NCBI GenBank assembly: GCA_009782915.1
Contig: WRIC01000006.1
Coordinates: 1 to 64,000 of the forward strand
From: Propionibacteriaceae bacterium
Lineage (GTDB): Bacteria > Actinomycetota > Actinomycetes > Propionibacteriales > Propionibacteriaceae
Reading direction: 5' to 3'
Length of the DNA: 64,000 bases
A program made the position numbers and the translations under genes. The notes beneath the pieces were generated by a model. That model saw only the letters and a program-made list of their open reading frames with translations, did no database searches and was not told the DNA's origin. This document shows positions 50,807 to 56,690 of this stretch, piece by piece (within the stretch, counting starts at the first letter, position 1; the number at the start of each line of letters is the position of its first letter).

Positions 50807-50853
50807 GTTCGTGGTTGTTTATTCGTCATGATGACGAATAAACAACCACGAAC
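50807..50853. repeat. Perfect 47-nt palindrome between metX and tRNA-Asn
   Basis: Arms of 23 nt, starting GTTCGTGGTTGTTT and reading into the centre as TTCGTCAT-G-ATGACGAA, pair without mismatch around a single G at 50830. There is no T-run on either side. It may be a strong DNA-binding site, a cruciform or a remnant of a mobile sequence. Nothing else is seen in 50690-50959 beyond promoters. Confidence 0.9.
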
Positions 50854-50959: not shown

Positions 50960-51032
50960 TCCTCCATAGCTCAATTGGCAGAGCAACGGACTGTTAATCC
51001 GTGTGTTCCTGGTTCGAGTCCAGGTGGGGGAG
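50960..51032 (+). tRNA. tRNA-Asn (GTT)
   Basis: A 73-nt cloverleaf with acceptor TCCTCCA/TGGGGGA, anticodon GTT at 50993-50995 in loop CTGTTAA, and T arm CCTGG-TTCGAGT-CCAGG. CCA is not encoded. An extended -10-like TGGTAACCT ends 13 bases upstream. The 3' half is repeated at 52258-52296, marking this gene as an integration site. Confidence 0.96.
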
Positions 51033-51034
51033 CT
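50996..51034 (+). repeat. attL-like copy (39 bp) within tRNA-Asn
   Basis: The stretch from the anticodon loop to two bases past the tRNA 3' end is identical to 52258-52296 over 39 bp; flanks diverge at once on both sides. Confidence 0.9.
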
Positions 51035-51062
51035 ACATTTTCCCTAGTCAGAGCAATATTAT

Positions 51063-51137
51063 AAACCTTAGTAAACCTTAGTAAAGGTCTATAGTATGGC
51101 TCCCAAATGGCTCCTATGGCTCCCATAATGGCTCCCA
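51063..51137. repeat. Arm-like direct repeats near attL
   Basis: AAACCTTAG occurs at 51063 and 51073. ATGGCTCC then occurs four times, at 51096, 51107, 51116 and 51128, spaced 9-12 bp, close to one helical turn. Such clustered repeats next to an att site resemble integrase-arm or excisionase binding sites. Confidence 0.6.
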
Positions 51138-51155
51138 TTTTGGTACTCTAGGGAC

Positions 51156-51323
51156 GTGGTCAAGGCATCAAAAACCAGGGCAAAAGGAGACGGGGCGCTC
51201 TACCAAACCGCTGAAGGTAGGTGGATTGGGTCCGTTGATCTCGGAGTACGAGACGGAAAACGAATCAGGAAAAAGGTCAGCGCATGTGTCCCTGGTCAAG
51301 AAAGCCACCGACTCACTGACTGA
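51156..51323 (+). pseudogene. Tyrosine-recombinase integrase, N-terminal fragment
   Basis: From GTG 51156 the frame encodes KGDGALYQTAEGRWIGSVDL followed by GVRDGKRIRKKVSA, the AP2-like arm-binding N-terminus of phage integrases. After residue 43 similarity ends, and the frame stops at 51321-51323. The core-binding and catalytic domains are gone. An extended -10 TGGTACTCT ends 6 bases before the GTG, suggesting an originally leaderless mRNA. Integrase reads inward from attL, as is usual. Confidence 0.75.
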
Positions 51324-51483
51324 GAACCCCAGACCACATGGAGTGAAAAAACTCTCAGGCAGAGACCAATACAGGATCAGCGTCAAGGACTATCGCATTA
51401 TCTACACCATTCAAGACAATATTCTTCTCGTCCGGGTTATTGCTGTCGGGCACAGAAGCAAGATATATAGGAGTAAGAAATGA
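51286..51483 (+). pseudogene. RelE-like toxin lacking its N-terminus
   Basis: The frame encodes SLTENPRPHGVKKLSGRDQY then RISVKDYRIIYTI and VIAVGHRSKIYR, the C-terminal two thirds of a RelE/ParE toxin. The first strand and helix, about 20-25 residues, are missing, and the upstream sequence is the integrase fragment in another frame. A GTG at 51286 behind AAAAAGG could still start a 65-residue product. Its stop overlaps the antitoxin start by 4 bp, so the toxin is upstream of the antitoxin. Confidence 0.7.
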
Positions 51484-51734
51484 GCGCACTCATGCCCACT
51501 ATCATCCCGATCAGTGAAGCGAAACCACGTTTGGCTGAACTAATCGACAAATCAGACACCGAAGATATTGTGGTGACCCGTCGCGGTCATGCGGCTGCTG
51601 TGATCGTGTCAGTGGATCGATATAGTGATCTTCTCGACCGTATCGAAGATGCTGAGGATTCCCTCGCTATTTACCAGGCTGAAGGTGAAGAGACCATACC
51701 AGCAGAAGAAGTGTATGCGAAGCTCGGAATCTGA
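51480..51734 (+). CDS. Phd/YefM-family antitoxin
   Basis: The 84-residue protein looks complete. PTIIPISEAKPRLAELIDKS and DIVVTRRGHAAAVIVSVDRY are the DNA-binding Phd/YefM fold, followed by an acidic helix (RIEDAEDSLAIYQAEGEE) that normally wraps the toxin. The partner toxin upstream is truncated, so this is an orphan antitoxin inside the decayed element. It could act on RelE-type toxins elsewhere in the genome. Confidence 0.88.
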   Translation: MSALMPTIIPISEAKPRLAELIDKSDTEDIVVTRRGHAAAVIVSVDRYSDLLDRIEDAEDSLAIYQAEGEETIPAEEVYAKLGI

Positions 51735-51998
51735 CTATTTCCAGCGTCCGAAACCCGTGATTCTCACTGCCCGGGTTTCTATGCCAGCGTTCGGTCTAAA
51801 TACTCTGACATTCCCTGCGTTAGTGACCGTCTGCCCCTGTGTGCCTGTCCAATAAACCTGAGCCGCACACGCGGGAGCCCACGAGTAAAGATCAGTAAAT
51901 GGTTTCGTCCATTCCCCCATTGCATGATTTGAGTAATAGATACTGTTCGTCCAGAGGGTTCCACCGAGCGCTGTAGTTAATGTCTTCCATCCGATCAT
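51735..51998 (-). CDS. Small frame of unknown function, possible C-terminal fragment
   Basis: An 87-codon minus-strand frame is not recognised. It is rich in Thr, Trp and Tyr with no membrane helix (for example GTLWTNSIYYSNHAMGEW). It stays open about 30 bases upstream of its ATG, so it may be the 3' end of a longer, lost gene such as a surface or tail-fibre-like protein. It abuts the antitoxin stop. No convincing ribosome site was seen. Confidence 0.3.
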   Translation of the reverse strand: MIGWKTLTTALGGTLWTNSIYYSNHAMGEWTKPFTDLYSWAPACAAQVYWTGTQGQTVTNAGNVRVFRPNAGIETRAVRITGFGRWK

Positions 51999-52041
51999 GA
52001 ACCCGTCAGGGAAGCAAGGATTTCCTGCGAATAGTCATCCT

Positions 52042-52060
52042 CTAAGGTCTCAAACCTTAG
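52042..52060. repeat. Arm-like inverted motif near attR
   Basis: CTAAGGT and ACCTTAG form an inverted repeat, and AAACCTTAG at 52052-52060 is the same 9-mer found twice near attL. It lies about 200 bp inside attR. No gene was found in 51999-52257. Confidence 0.55.
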
Positions 52061-52257
52061 AACCCCCACAAACACAACATCTGACTAGCGAGAACACCCC
52101 AAACCAGACACACATTTTGTCCTATACCCCCCTTTTCCTAACCCATCAGCATGGGGAATTGACAACAAGGTCCCGACCTGTGAGACTTCAGTAAGTAGCT
52201 GCTTATAAGTGGCTAAACCGATTATGGGCTATCTGCCCCACCATCGAGTTGCCAGCG

Positions 52258-52296
52258 AATCCGTGTGTTCCTGGTTCGAGTCCAGGTGGGGGAGCT
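52258..52296 (+). repeat. attR-like copy of the tRNA-Asn 3' half
   Basis: Thirty-nine bases identical to the tRNA-Asn 3' half, without the 5' half needed for a tRNA. Confidence 0.9.
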
Positions 52297-52358: not shown

Positions 52359-55300
52359 GTGTCGCAGCGTTATGCCCTCGGATTGGATGTGGGGTCTACC
52401 ACTCTCAAAGCTGTACTCATCGACAATGACACCATCATCCATCAGGAATACCGTCGCCACAATGCTGATGTCCAAGCTGAATTGGTGAAACTCGTTCGAG
52501 AATTGGCCACGGAATTTCCCGAAATTGAGGTTGCGGTGGCGATCACAGGCTCGGGAGGCCTTGGAATAGCCCAGGCACTTGAAGTCGAGTTCATTCAAGA
52601 GGTCATCGCTGGCACCCACGCGGTGCAGAAGTTCTATCCCCACGCAGATGTGGCGATCGAATTGGGTGGTGAGGATGCCAAGATCACCTATTTCAAACCT
52701 GTTCCTGAGCAGCGCATGAATGGGACCTGTGCTGGTGGTACAGGGGCTTTCATCGATCAGATGGCCACACTCCTACAGACTGATGCTGCTGGACTCAATG
52801 ACCTTGCGGCTGGTCATCTTCACCTCTACCCTATTGCTTCGCGTTGTGGTGTGTTCGCTAAAACCGATCTGCAACCACTCATCAACGAAGGTGCGCGCCA
52901 CGAGGATTTGGCAGCATCGATCTTCCAGGCGGTAGCTACCCAGACGATCTCTGGGTTAGCTCAGGGTCGTCCAGTACGAGGAAGAGTCATCTTCTTGGGT
53001 GGGCCACTACATTTTCTTCCCGAACTTCGACATGCTTTCGAGCGTGCTTTAGAAGGCGAGGCAACCGAATGCTTGACACCACAATCAGCCCAACTCTTTG
53101 TTGCCTTGGGAGCTGCTCACCAAGCTTCCGCCACCGTCCTAACCCTGGATGAGCTGAGCCACAGACTCTCCGAGCGTAGCCATCTTGTTCCCATTTCTGG
53201 ACGTATGGCTCCCCTGTTTGCTACGCCCGAGGATCGTGCAACCTTCCTTGCTCGCCATGGCAGTGAAACCATCCCCCACAAGGACATTTCCGAAGCAACA
53301 GGGGCCTGTTACCTGGGTATTGATGCGGGTTCCACCACGATCAAAGCAGTGTTGATTGACGAAGACGACACTCTCCTGTGGTCCTACTACGCTGGCAACC
53401 AAGGGGATCCTGTTTCTGCGGCTATTCAGATCGCCACCGACGTACGCCAGGCACTGCCGCGCAACGCCATTATCGCTCAGACCTGTGTCACTGGATATGG
53501 GGAAGGACTGATTAAAGCAGCCTTGCATATTGATCATGGTGTGGTGGAAACCATTGCCCACTTCCGCGCAGCCGACAAGATCGTTCCAGGAGTAACCTCG
53601 GTTATTGACATCGGTGGACAGGACATGAAATATCTCTCGATTCACGATGGTGCTATTGATTCGATCGCTGTGAATGAAGCATGCTCGTCTGGTTGTGGGT
53701 CCTTCCTCCAAACCTTTGCCGAGTCTCTGGGGCTCACCACTGAAGAATTCACCCAGGCAGCCTGTGAAGGTGAATCTCCGGTTGACCTCGGGAGTCGTTG
53801 CACGGTGTTTATGAACTCTTCGGTCAAACAAGCACAAAAAGAGGGAGCAACAGTTGGGGATATTGCTGCAGGACTGAGTTATGCCGTCATTCGTAATGCC
53901 CTCTACAAGGTCATCAAACTGCGCGATTCTTCTCAGCTCGGTGACAAGGTGGTTGTTCAAGGTGGCACCTTCCTCAATGATGCCGTCCTGCGTGCATTCG
54001 AGTTGTTGACCGGACATGAGGTCGTACGCCCCAATATCGCTGGACTCATGGGTGCTTATGGGGCTGCTTTGACTGCGAAACAAGAATTCACTCCTGGGGT
54101 TCCCACCCAGATGCTGTCGGTAGCTTCGCTGAAGAGGGTCAACCTGGAGACAGAAACCACCAACTGTGGGCTGTGTCACAACAATTGCCAGTGCACGATT
54201 TCCACTTTTGGCAACGGGGAACGCCACATTTCGGGGAACCGCTGCGAACGGGCCGCTGATCCGTCGAAAGACAAATCCGAGTTGCCAAATCTCTTCGATT
54301 ACACCTACAAGCGCCTTTTTGGTTATCGTCGTTTGACTGAGAAGGAAGCAACTCGTGGCGACATTGGAATACCGCGCGCTCTCAACATGTACGAGAACTA
54401 TCCGCTGTGGTTCACGATCTTGTCTCACCTGAAATTCCGTGTGGTGATCTCCGGGCGAAGCTCACATGAACTCTTCGAATTGGGGATGCACTCTATTGCC
54501 TCAGAGAATGTGTGTTATCCCGCCAAACTAGTCCACGGCCATGTGGAATCTTTGTTAGATCGTGGGGTGACAACGATCTTCTATCCGAGTGTGAACTATG
54601 AGCAGGAACTCATCGAAGGTTCGGATAAGAACTACAACTGTCCAGTGGTTGCTTCGTATCCACAGGTCATCCAAAATAATCTGGAGAAGATACGCAGACC
54701 TGGGGTGCGCCTGATCAACCCTTACCTGAATCTCGCCAACCGCGACCATCTTGCTCATCGGTTGGTGGAGATCTTTGCCGACGATGGTGTCACTTTGGTG
54801 GAAGCCCAAGAAGCGGTGGCCGCTGGATACGCTGAGGATGAGGCTTTCCGCTGCGACATTCAGCGGGCAGGCCAAGAAGCCAGGGAGTATTGCGCGCGGA
54901 ATAACGTACGAGGAATCGTTCTCGCTGGTCGGCCGTACCATATTGATCCTGAGGTCCACCATGGGATACCCGAGTTGGTGACCAGCCTCGGTATGGCTGT
55001 GTTGACAGAGAATTCTGTTCTCGGCGCCCAAGAGCTCGAAAGACCCCTGCGCGTACGAGACCAATGGTCCTATCATTCCCGGTTGTATGAAGCAGCCAGT
55101 GTGGTGGCTGGGGATGAGAACCTGGAGCTCGTGCAGTTGAACTCTTTTGGGTGCGGGTTGGATGCGATCACCTCCGAGCAGGTCTCAGAGATTCTGGAAG
55201 CGAAGAACAAGGTCTATACCTTGCTGAAAATAGATGAGGTTTCCAGCCTGGGGGCTGCGAGGATTCGCTTGCGTTCCCTGGCAGCAGCAGTCAACCAGCG

Positions 55301-56690
55301 CCGCACTTTGGACCGCAAACCGAGAAGTCACGCCCTCGTGAGGGTTCCTTTCACCAAAGAGATGAAAAAGAATCACACGATTTTGGCTCCCCAAATGGCT
55401 CCCATTCATTTCCGCTTGGTGGTTCCCATCATCGAATCAGCTGGTTTCAAGGTGAAATTCCTGGAACATGCCTCACCGCAGGATGTGGAAAGAGGACTGA
55501 AGACAGTCAACAATGATGCCTGCTACCCCGCCATCATGGTCATCGGGCAACTCGTGGAGGCCCTTCACAGTGAGGATGTTGATCCAGAGAACACCTCGGT
55601 CCTCATCACCCAAACTGGTGGAATGTGCCGGGCCACCAACTACACTGCCCTGCTGCGCAAGGCACTGCGCGATGCTGGTTATCCCCAGATTCCGGTGATC
55701 GCTATCTCCACCTCAGGGATCGAATCTAATCCGGGTTTCAAGATCACTCTGCCTTTGGCCCACAAGGTCATGAGGGCTTTGGCTTTAGGTGATTTGCTTC
55801 AAGACCTTTTGTTGAGGGTACGCCCGTACGCGCTGGTCGAGGGTAGTGCGACCGAGCTCTACCATCGCTGGGACACCATCTTGAGCGAATGGATTGCTAC
55901 TGGCCACTCCCCCACCCTAGGGCGACGAATGACCTATCCTCAGATCGTCCACGCGCTGGTGGAAGAGTTTGATGCTTTGACCTTAAATAAAGCACCTCGT
56001 CGTCCACGTGTGGGTGTGGTCGGCGAGATTCTGGTCAAATTCCAGCCCGATGCGAACAATCATGTGATTGATGTCATCGAATCCGAGGGATGCGAGGCTG
56101 CCCTGCCGGGTCTCATGGAATTCATGCTCACTGGTTTACACACCGCGGATTGGAACTGGGAAAACTTCGGTATTGGTGGCAAGTGGAGACGGTTGAAGGG
56201 AATCCTTCGGTGGTGGATGGAGAGATACCGCACCCCCGTACGTCAAGCACTTCAGAAAGTAAATGCTCGCTACGATGAGCCCAAGTTCACTGTTCCCGGA
56301 TCGATGGCGGAACTCGCAGCACGTGCCCAAGAGGTGACTAGTTTGGGCAATCAAGCTGGTGAGGGTTGGCTTCTCACCGGTGAAATCGTGGAGTTGATCC
56401 ATCATGGCGTCCCCAATGTGATCTGTGTGCAACCTTTCGCCTGCCTTCCCAACCATGTCACGGGTAAGGGAATGTTCAAGGAGATTCGCCGCCAGCATCC
56501 CCGCGCAAACCTGGTCACTATTGATTACGATCCTGGCGCTTCTGAGGTCAATCAGCTCAATCGCATCAAATTGATGTTGACCACCGCCCACATGGGACAC
56601 AACGGTGAATTGGTGGTGGTTGACGATGAACCCTCCCTGGTGACGTTCACCATCGATGAGTCATCGGTCAAAGAATCCTCACGACGCTGA
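52359..56690 (+). CDS. 2-hydroxyacyl-CoA dehydratase activase-related multidomain protein
   Basis: The 1,443-residue protein has three parts. The first ATPase module of the BcrAD/BadFG/HgdC type (about 1-270) begins RYALGLDVGSTTLKAVLIDN, with Cys 124 and Cys 163. The second module (about 315-575) begins CYLGIDAGSTTIKAVLID, with Cys 442 and Cys 481. The C-terminal 850 residues resemble DUF2229 and HgdB-like dehydratase components, with a Cys cluster NCGLCHNNCQC at 602-612 and two CYPA motifs. Each module keeps the 39-residue Cys spacing of HgdC. AAAGGAG precedes GTG 52359. The family is widespread in anaerobes with no settled function; no dehydratase genes are adjacent. Confidence 0.9.
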   Translation: MSQRYALGLDVGSTTLKAVLIDNDTIIHQEYRRHNADVQAELVKLVRELATEFPEIEVAVAITGSGGLGIAQALEVEFIQEVIAGTHAVQKFYPHADVAIELGGEDAKITYFKPVPEQRMNGTCAGGTGAFIDQMATLLQTDAAGLNDLAAGHLHLYPIASRCGVFAKTDLQPLINEGARHEDLAASIFQAVATQTISGLAQGRPVRGRVIFLGGPLHFLPELRHAFERALEGEATECLTPQSAQLFVALGAAHQASATVLTLDELSHRLSERSHLVPISGRMAPLFATPEDRATFLARHGSETIPHKDISEATGACYLGIDAGSTTIKAVLIDEDDTLLWSYYAGNQGDPVSAAIQIATDVRQALPRNAIIAQTCVTGYGEGLIKAALHIDHGVVETIAHFRAADKIVPGVTSVIDIGGQDMKYLSIHDGAIDSIAVNEACSSGCGSFLQTFAESLGLTTEEFTQAACEGESPVDLGSRCTVFMNSSVKQAQKEGATVGDIAAGLSYAVIRNALYKVIKLRDSSQLGDKVVVQGGTFLNDAVLRAFELLTGHEVVRPNIAGLMGAYGAALTAKQEFTPGVPTQMLSVASLKRVNLETETTNCGLCHNNCQCTISTFGNGERHISGNRCERAADPSKDKSELPNLFDYTYKRLFGYRRLTEKEATRGDIGIPRALNMYENYPLWFTILSHLKFRVVISGRSSHELFELGMHSIASENVCYPAKLVHGHVESLLDRGVTTIFYPSVNYEQELIEGSDKNYNCPVVASYPQVIQNNLEKIRRPGVRLINPYLNLANRDHLAHRLVEIFADDGVTLVEAQEAVAAGYAEDEAFRCDIQRAGQEAREYCARNNVRGIVLAGRPYHIDPEVHHGIPELVTSLGMAVLTENSVLGAQELERPLRVRDQWSYHSRLYEAASVVAGDENLELVQLNSFGCGLDAITSEQVSEILEAKNKVYTLLKIDEVSSLGAARIRLRSLAAAVNQRRTLDRKPRSHALVRVPFTKEMKKNHTILAPQMAPIHFRLVVPIIESAGFKVKFLEHASPQDVERGLKTVNNDACYPAIMVIGQLVEALHSEDVDPENTSVLITQTGGMCRATNYTALLRKALRDAGYPQIPVIAISTSGIESNPGFKITLPLAHKVMRALALGDLLQDLLLRVRPYALVEGSATELYHRWDTILSEWIATGHSPTLGRRMTYPQIVHALVEEFDALTLNKAPRRPRVGVVGEILVKFQPDANNHVIDVIESEGCEAALPGLMEFMLTGLHTADWNWENFGIGGKWRRLKGILRWWMERYRTPVRQALQKVNARYDEPKFTVPGSMAELAARAQEVTSLGNQAGEGWLLTGEIVELIHHGVPNVICVQPFACLPNHVTGKGMFKEIRRQHPRANLVTIDYDPGASEVNQLNRIKLMLTTAHMGHNGELVVVDDEPSLVTFTIDESSVKESSRR

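Follow-up and report, generated by a model that had tools for sequence, protein, structure and literature searches.

A 1.26-kb insertion in a tRNA-Asn gene of a Propionibacteriaceae bacterium, very probably the stub of a collapsed temperate prophage

Introduction

In the excerpts of PMC6379469 used here, degenerate "grounded" prophages that have lost the integrase and undergone deletions are described at tRNA genes of Escherichia coli. In the excerpts of PMC5704250, CIMEs derive from decayed ICEs or IMEs and are often found in tandem. The locus described here shares with the E. coli prophages, as the excerpts of PMC6379469 present them, the position at a tRNA gene, integrase loss, deletions, an insertion sequence (IS) scar and the retention of att-like ends. 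It lies in contig WRIC01000006.1 of a Propionibacteriaceae bacterium (assembly GCA_009782915.1; 1.64 Mb, 33 contigs, 93.5% complete), of which the first 64,000 nt were analysed and are referred to below as the window. Two ends, gene pieces and an IS scar are observed at the locus, together with an empty site in a relative. It is very probably a decayed temperate prophage stub of 1.26 kb in tRNA-Asn, collapsed by deletions and unable to move by itself. A literature search found no paper combining termite Propionibacteriaceae genomes with prophages.

Table 1. Features of the tRNA-Asn locus, in window positions
Feature	Position	Strand	Remarks
tRNA-Asn (gtt), complete	50960..51033	+	ARAGORN; 3′ half is the attachment site
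attL core, 39 bp	50996..51034	+	exact direct repeat; left copy completes a normal tRNA-Asn
CCTAGTCAG, just inside attL	51043..51051	+	
Four ATGGCTCC repeats between attL and integrase	51096..51135	+	absent from the initial annotation
Integrase N-terminus, about 43 codons, without catalytic part	51156..51284 (about; to 51287)	+	similarity to integrases of relatives
RelE/ParE toxin, C-terminal ~62 codons, first ~25 absent	51295..51483	+	PF05016, 2.2e-12; frame differs from integrase; absent from the initial annotation
Phd/YefM antitoxin, complete	51480..51734	+	PF02604 (PhdYeFM_antitox), 1.2e-14; phd_fam
3′ end of phage gene, probably a tail gene	51735..52016	-	45% over 93 aa to G006 prophage protein; absent from the initial annotation
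IS1249-family insertion sequence, outer 116 bp	52015..52130		absent from the initial annotation
127 bp adjoining attR	52131..52257		weak gapped match to G006 right arm
attR core, 39 bp	52258..52296	+	exact direct repeat; displaced tRNA 3′ half

Results and Discussion

Repeat ends and the tRNA-Asn target site

The initial annotation described a 39-bp repeat of the 3′ half of the tRNA around about 1.26 kb, and both copies are borne out, with 39 of 39 nt identical and a start-to-start distance of 1262 bp. At up to 3 mismatches, the core is found in its own assembly exclusively as the attL and attR copies, and a reversed-pattern control gave no match. Site-specific integration, as had been proposed, is supported by these paired att-like ends and by an empty site in a relative, genome G006. 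The G006 tRNA-Asn region is the best match in the genus (93%) and displays the gene order of the window without the insertion, i.e., an upstream alpha/beta hydrolase gene (so assigned by Pfam; we take it to be metX), tRNA-Asn and a BadF-type gene. A second 39-bp copy in an uninserted relative, which would speak against integration, was not seen; G006 has one copy.

The tRNA-Asn gene was surveyed in the genus at 17 loci from 16 of 18 relatives, with 0 to 5.2 kb of downstream sequence each. Integrases of the broad family are present at three of the 17 (genomes G007, G017 and G005; E 2e-66 or better, with a model built from six sequences that include the G007 integrase). At a fourth, in G015 (L120:2283-3025), there are two weak integrase fragments (E 0.049 and 0.099) and an integrase-like start, MVKQSGRRG, in the translation; these may be what is left of another element that decayed independently at this site. 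These loci suggest that tRNA-Asn is used repeatedly as an integration site in the genus. The motif CTAGTCAG follows the G015 tRNA-Asn at the same position as in the window, and it likewise lies 3′ of the tRNA where G006 and G002 carry their integrases, as well as 3′ of the tRNA-Asn of G002.

A full prophage with the 39-bp core in tRNA-Asn was not found. No stretch of the viral contigs has the exact core. A 28-bp portion of it matched 27 viral stretches, none of which was matched in tblastn searches with two related integrases (E<=1e-5) or with pieces of the window (E<=1e-2).

Several features lie beside or across the repeats. Upstream of the tRNA, at 50807-50853, two 23-nt arms around a 1-nt centre form a perfect inverted repeat. 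Three further arms, each single and with 3 mismatches, are found on other contigs (C1, C4 and C13) and none in a backwards control, and the repeat may be a dispersed motif. Downstream of attR, 52359-56690 encodes a 1443-aa BadF/DUF2229 CoA-enzyme activator-type protein that is conserved in G006; in locus L011 of genome G010 the BadF-type gene lies upstream of tRNA-Asn and is encoded on the opposite strand. An inverted pair at 51038-51052 and 52080-52094 was considered as a feature of the element and rejected, because one arm falls inside the IS end.

Truncated integrase

The inward-reading integrase N-terminus at the start of the stub, noted earlier as having lost its catalytic domain, is confirmed by a search of relatives but not by Pfam profiles, which gave no match to 51156-51287 at E<=1. 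With a 44-aa query, matches were obtained in 19 of 198 genomes of the family, its own genome counted among the 19. The best relative is a 392-aa integrase of G002 (E 7.7e-15, about 68-70% identity). Silence in Pfam was therefore rejected as an argument against an integrase, the search of relatives being unambiguous. In viral contigs, an integrase alignment search returned 40 relatives, the best at 33% identity.

Toxin-antitoxin remnant

The complete antitoxin recorded by the initial annotation is retained, and it is the sole complete gene recognised within the stub. Its start overlaps the end of the toxin by ATGA. The full-length toxin homologue in genome G001 has 87 aa, with which the stub toxin aligns from residue 26 onward; the point of fusion with the integrase is at about 51285-51294, and the truncated toxin is probably inactive. 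The G001 toxin matches "RelE-like toxin", a moron family of PHROG. RelE/antitoxin pairs with the toxin gene first are found in actinophages, e.g., Xeno and Bunnybear. An antitoxin pattern matched 16 stretches in viral contigs, none of them confirmed. The genome encodes one further PhdYeFM antitoxin, with a PIN-domain gene after it, and two more RelE/ParE proteins.

Orphan antitoxins and anti-addiction are the subject of published papers. The antitoxin could have been selectively kept for an anti-addiction function, directed at the toxins that related phages or plasmids encode, as its being the only complete gene, the presence of homologous full pairs in relatives and its codon comparison with G001 (37 silent and 16 replacement changes in 84 codons) might indicate. 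However, the codon pattern, seen also against G003 (36 silent, 24 replacement) and G008 (38 silent, 26 replacement), reflects constraint as the relatives diverged and does not measure selection after the toxin was lost. A promoter scan gave 2 sites where 1.3 are expected, i.e., chance level, and if the deletion is recent, that by itself would account for an intact antitoxin. Selective retention is thus unlikely; it is compatible with the collapse of a prophage, to which it would add.

Phage-gene end and IS1249 scar

Next to the antitoxin, with the two stop codons directly adjacent, is the minus-strand end of a phage gene, which matches a 174-aa G006 prophage protein in the C-terminal half of the latter. 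In 18 same-genus genomes, relatives of the fragment are found only in that prophage, as the 174-aa protein and a second short match. None of the Pfam, NCBIfam and PHROG families passes, and of 9 stretches matched by a fragment pattern in viral contigs none was confirmed. The N-terminal part of the 174-aa protein is similar to minor tail or tail fibre genes of Microbacterium phages (10 of 50,697 phage records). Because these matches fall in the N-terminal part, the tail label has no basis in the stretch kept in the window itself; the fragment probably belongs to a tail gene.

The outer 116 bp of the IS show 99% identity with the end of contig C21 of the same assembly and 98% with two sites in G006. 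At the G006 copy there is an ORF for an IS1249-family transposase (7.2e-29, first quarter of the model); the match is under the curated cut-off because the ORF is truncated there. It was also observed that contigs C21, C10 and C3 of the assembly itself, G000 (loci L031, L032, L033 and L034), end in or near the IS end sequence CAGACACACATTTTGTCCTATACCCC. With several contigs ending at CAGACACACATTTTGTCCTATACCCC, a multi-copy IS1249-type element probably breaks the assembly.

Related prophages

A prophage of about 37 kb occupies tRNA-Lys in G006, flanked by 46-bp repeats (C3:120505-120550 and C3:157598-157643 of that genome). Its genes, read outside C3:130000-139000, include an inward integrase related to that of the stub, a tape measure and an endolysin. 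In G002, a related integrase gene is located at tRNA-Thr, and after it, on the opposite strand, come genes for endolysin and tape measure; a second copy of the tRNA-Thr end was not found in C13:81000-139000. As a separate observation, a 481-aa ORF of the G006 prophage (L035:3920-5365) starts like the tail-type protein next to it and then runs into an IrrE-type peptidase domain (Peptidase_M78, 6.3e-14); apparently the start of a phage structural gene has been joined to a protein of regulator or defence type.

Arm regions and mobility

An 8-mer repeated at least three times, as in the region of the ATGGCTCC repeats, arose in 11 of 20000 mononucleotide shuffles. Since each end of the G006 prophage carries two ATGGCTATA repeats, the ATGGCTCC repeats are, by analogy, probable arm sites of the integrase. 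The left arm of the window resembles the left-arm region of G006 (0 of 300 shuffles as good), and the right end has gapped matches to the right arm of G006, weakly (12/300), and to its left arm (21/300). The 127 bp next to attR probably represent the right end that the prophage had originally.

The locus had been viewed in the initial annotation as a miniaturised element, possibly mobile in trans. This is not supported by the interior, which consists of a truncated integrase, a truncated toxin, a phage-gene end and an IS1249 scar. Nor is a related integrase found in the genome as the proposed driver: the search with the 44-aa N-terminal query gave the remnant itself as the sole match there, and the assembly has two PF00589 proteins, both Xer-like, and no phage-type integrase with the N-terminus of the stub. 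Both proteins carry the Xer-type SAM-like N-terminal domain (Pfam); the best NCBIfam models are XerC for one and tyrosine-recombinase and XerD for the other, and one of the two passes a curated cut-off (PRK00283) while the other is below every cut-off. As these are the only tyrosine recombinases of the assembly, there is no visible driver for mobilisation in trans.

It is very unlikely, then, that the stub is a CIME- or satellite-like mini-element with functional ends that the integrase of a related phage excises and inserts in trans. Exact cores and left-arm repeats are indeed kept, other members of the genus have related integrases, with three relatives having integrases at tRNA-Asn now, and the right end bears the weak resemblance to the G006 right arm. 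But no ATGGCTCC repeat is found at the right end with up to 2 mismatches, and the two arms of the window show no resemblance (172 of 300 shuffles as good). In addition, those of the related prophages that were analysed in full detail sit in tRNA-Lys and tRNA-Thr, not tRNA-Asn, and the core is absent from the viral contigs searched. Slightly less likely still is the combination of both ideas, in which a phage-derived, att-bounded 1.26-kb stub, moved in trans by the integrases of related phages and retaining a single intact gene, the orphan antitoxin, would be a minimal anti-addiction passenger. An assembly artefact, i.e., an interior misjoined in a metagenome-assembled genome, is the least credible reading, for although the named relatives are metagenome-assembled genomes and IS1249-type ends are found at contig ends of the assembly, the locus is inside a single 103,820-base contig, both flanks are syntenic with G006 and the att arrangement follows the logic of integration.

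Origin of the locus

The collapse of a prophage is the preferred reading. The tRNA 3′ end is directly repeated at the borders, phage gene pieces lie inside (the integrase N-terminus, and the gene end shared with G006, which is outside the PHROGs), and the site is empty in a relative. A temperate phage with a tyrosine integrase would have inserted in the 3′ half of tRNA-Asn, restoring a full tRNA at attL and displacing the original 3′ half to attR. A first deletion would have joined integrase codon ~43 to toxin codon ~26, with loss of the intervening DNA. A second would have extended from inside the tail gene as far as a copy of the IS1249-family element close to the right end, taking with it the greater part of the phage and the IS body.

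Mycobacterium phage Xeno may serve as a model of the intact ancestor. Its order is integrase (+), small genes, lysis genes (-), RelE toxin then antitoxin (+), and small genes and tail (-); in the window it is truncated integrase (+), truncated relE followed by phd (+), and phage-gene end (-). Since order and strands are shared, two deletions can explain the locus. It should be noted that Xeno is distant in sequence, its antitoxin being 37.5% identical. Because the stop codons of the antitoxin and the phage gene are adjacent, a third rearrangement is possible between them. Against the model of collapse, the integrase and the tail-like gene of the G006 prophage are on one strand and their counterparts in the window on opposite strands, and the tail fragment has one relative only with a phage context, which it matches in the C-terminal half, whereas the hits of that protein to minor tail proteins in phage records fall in its N-terminal part. 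The identical att copies and the 99% identity of the IS end suggest that the collapse was recent.

Comparison with known systems

Among phage records, the best matches to the G002 integrase are the integrases of Propionibacterium phages PFR1 and PFR2 (40.5%). In PFR1, which like Xeno may serve as a model of the intact ancestor, the integrase gene converges on lysis and tail genes. However, PFR1 is distant from the stub in sequence, and there is no annotated RelE pair in the 15-kb PFR1 stretch read.

Phage satellites have their own integrase and genes for replication or packaging interference. In the stub the integrase is truncated, and no replication or packaging gene is recognised among the ORFs of the interval; thus it is not a satellite. 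With the CIMEs, as the excerpts of PMC5704250 describe them, it shares the retention of attL and attR and the loss of the integration gene. However, the stub is solitary and its recognisable pieces point to a phage, whereas CIMEs come from ICEs or IMEs and are often in tandem; no conjugation genes were seen among the ORFs of the interval (ORF list, Pfam). Because it comes from a phage, the stub is not filed as a CIME.

From the grounded prophages of E. coli, so far as the excerpts of PMC6379469 describe them, the stub differs in being far smaller, with almost nothing between its ends. Of little significance alone, it records the collapse of a prophage at a tRNA gene cleanly and in a form that can still be read, and it is ordinary in that it fits a known kind, the degenerate grounded prophage.
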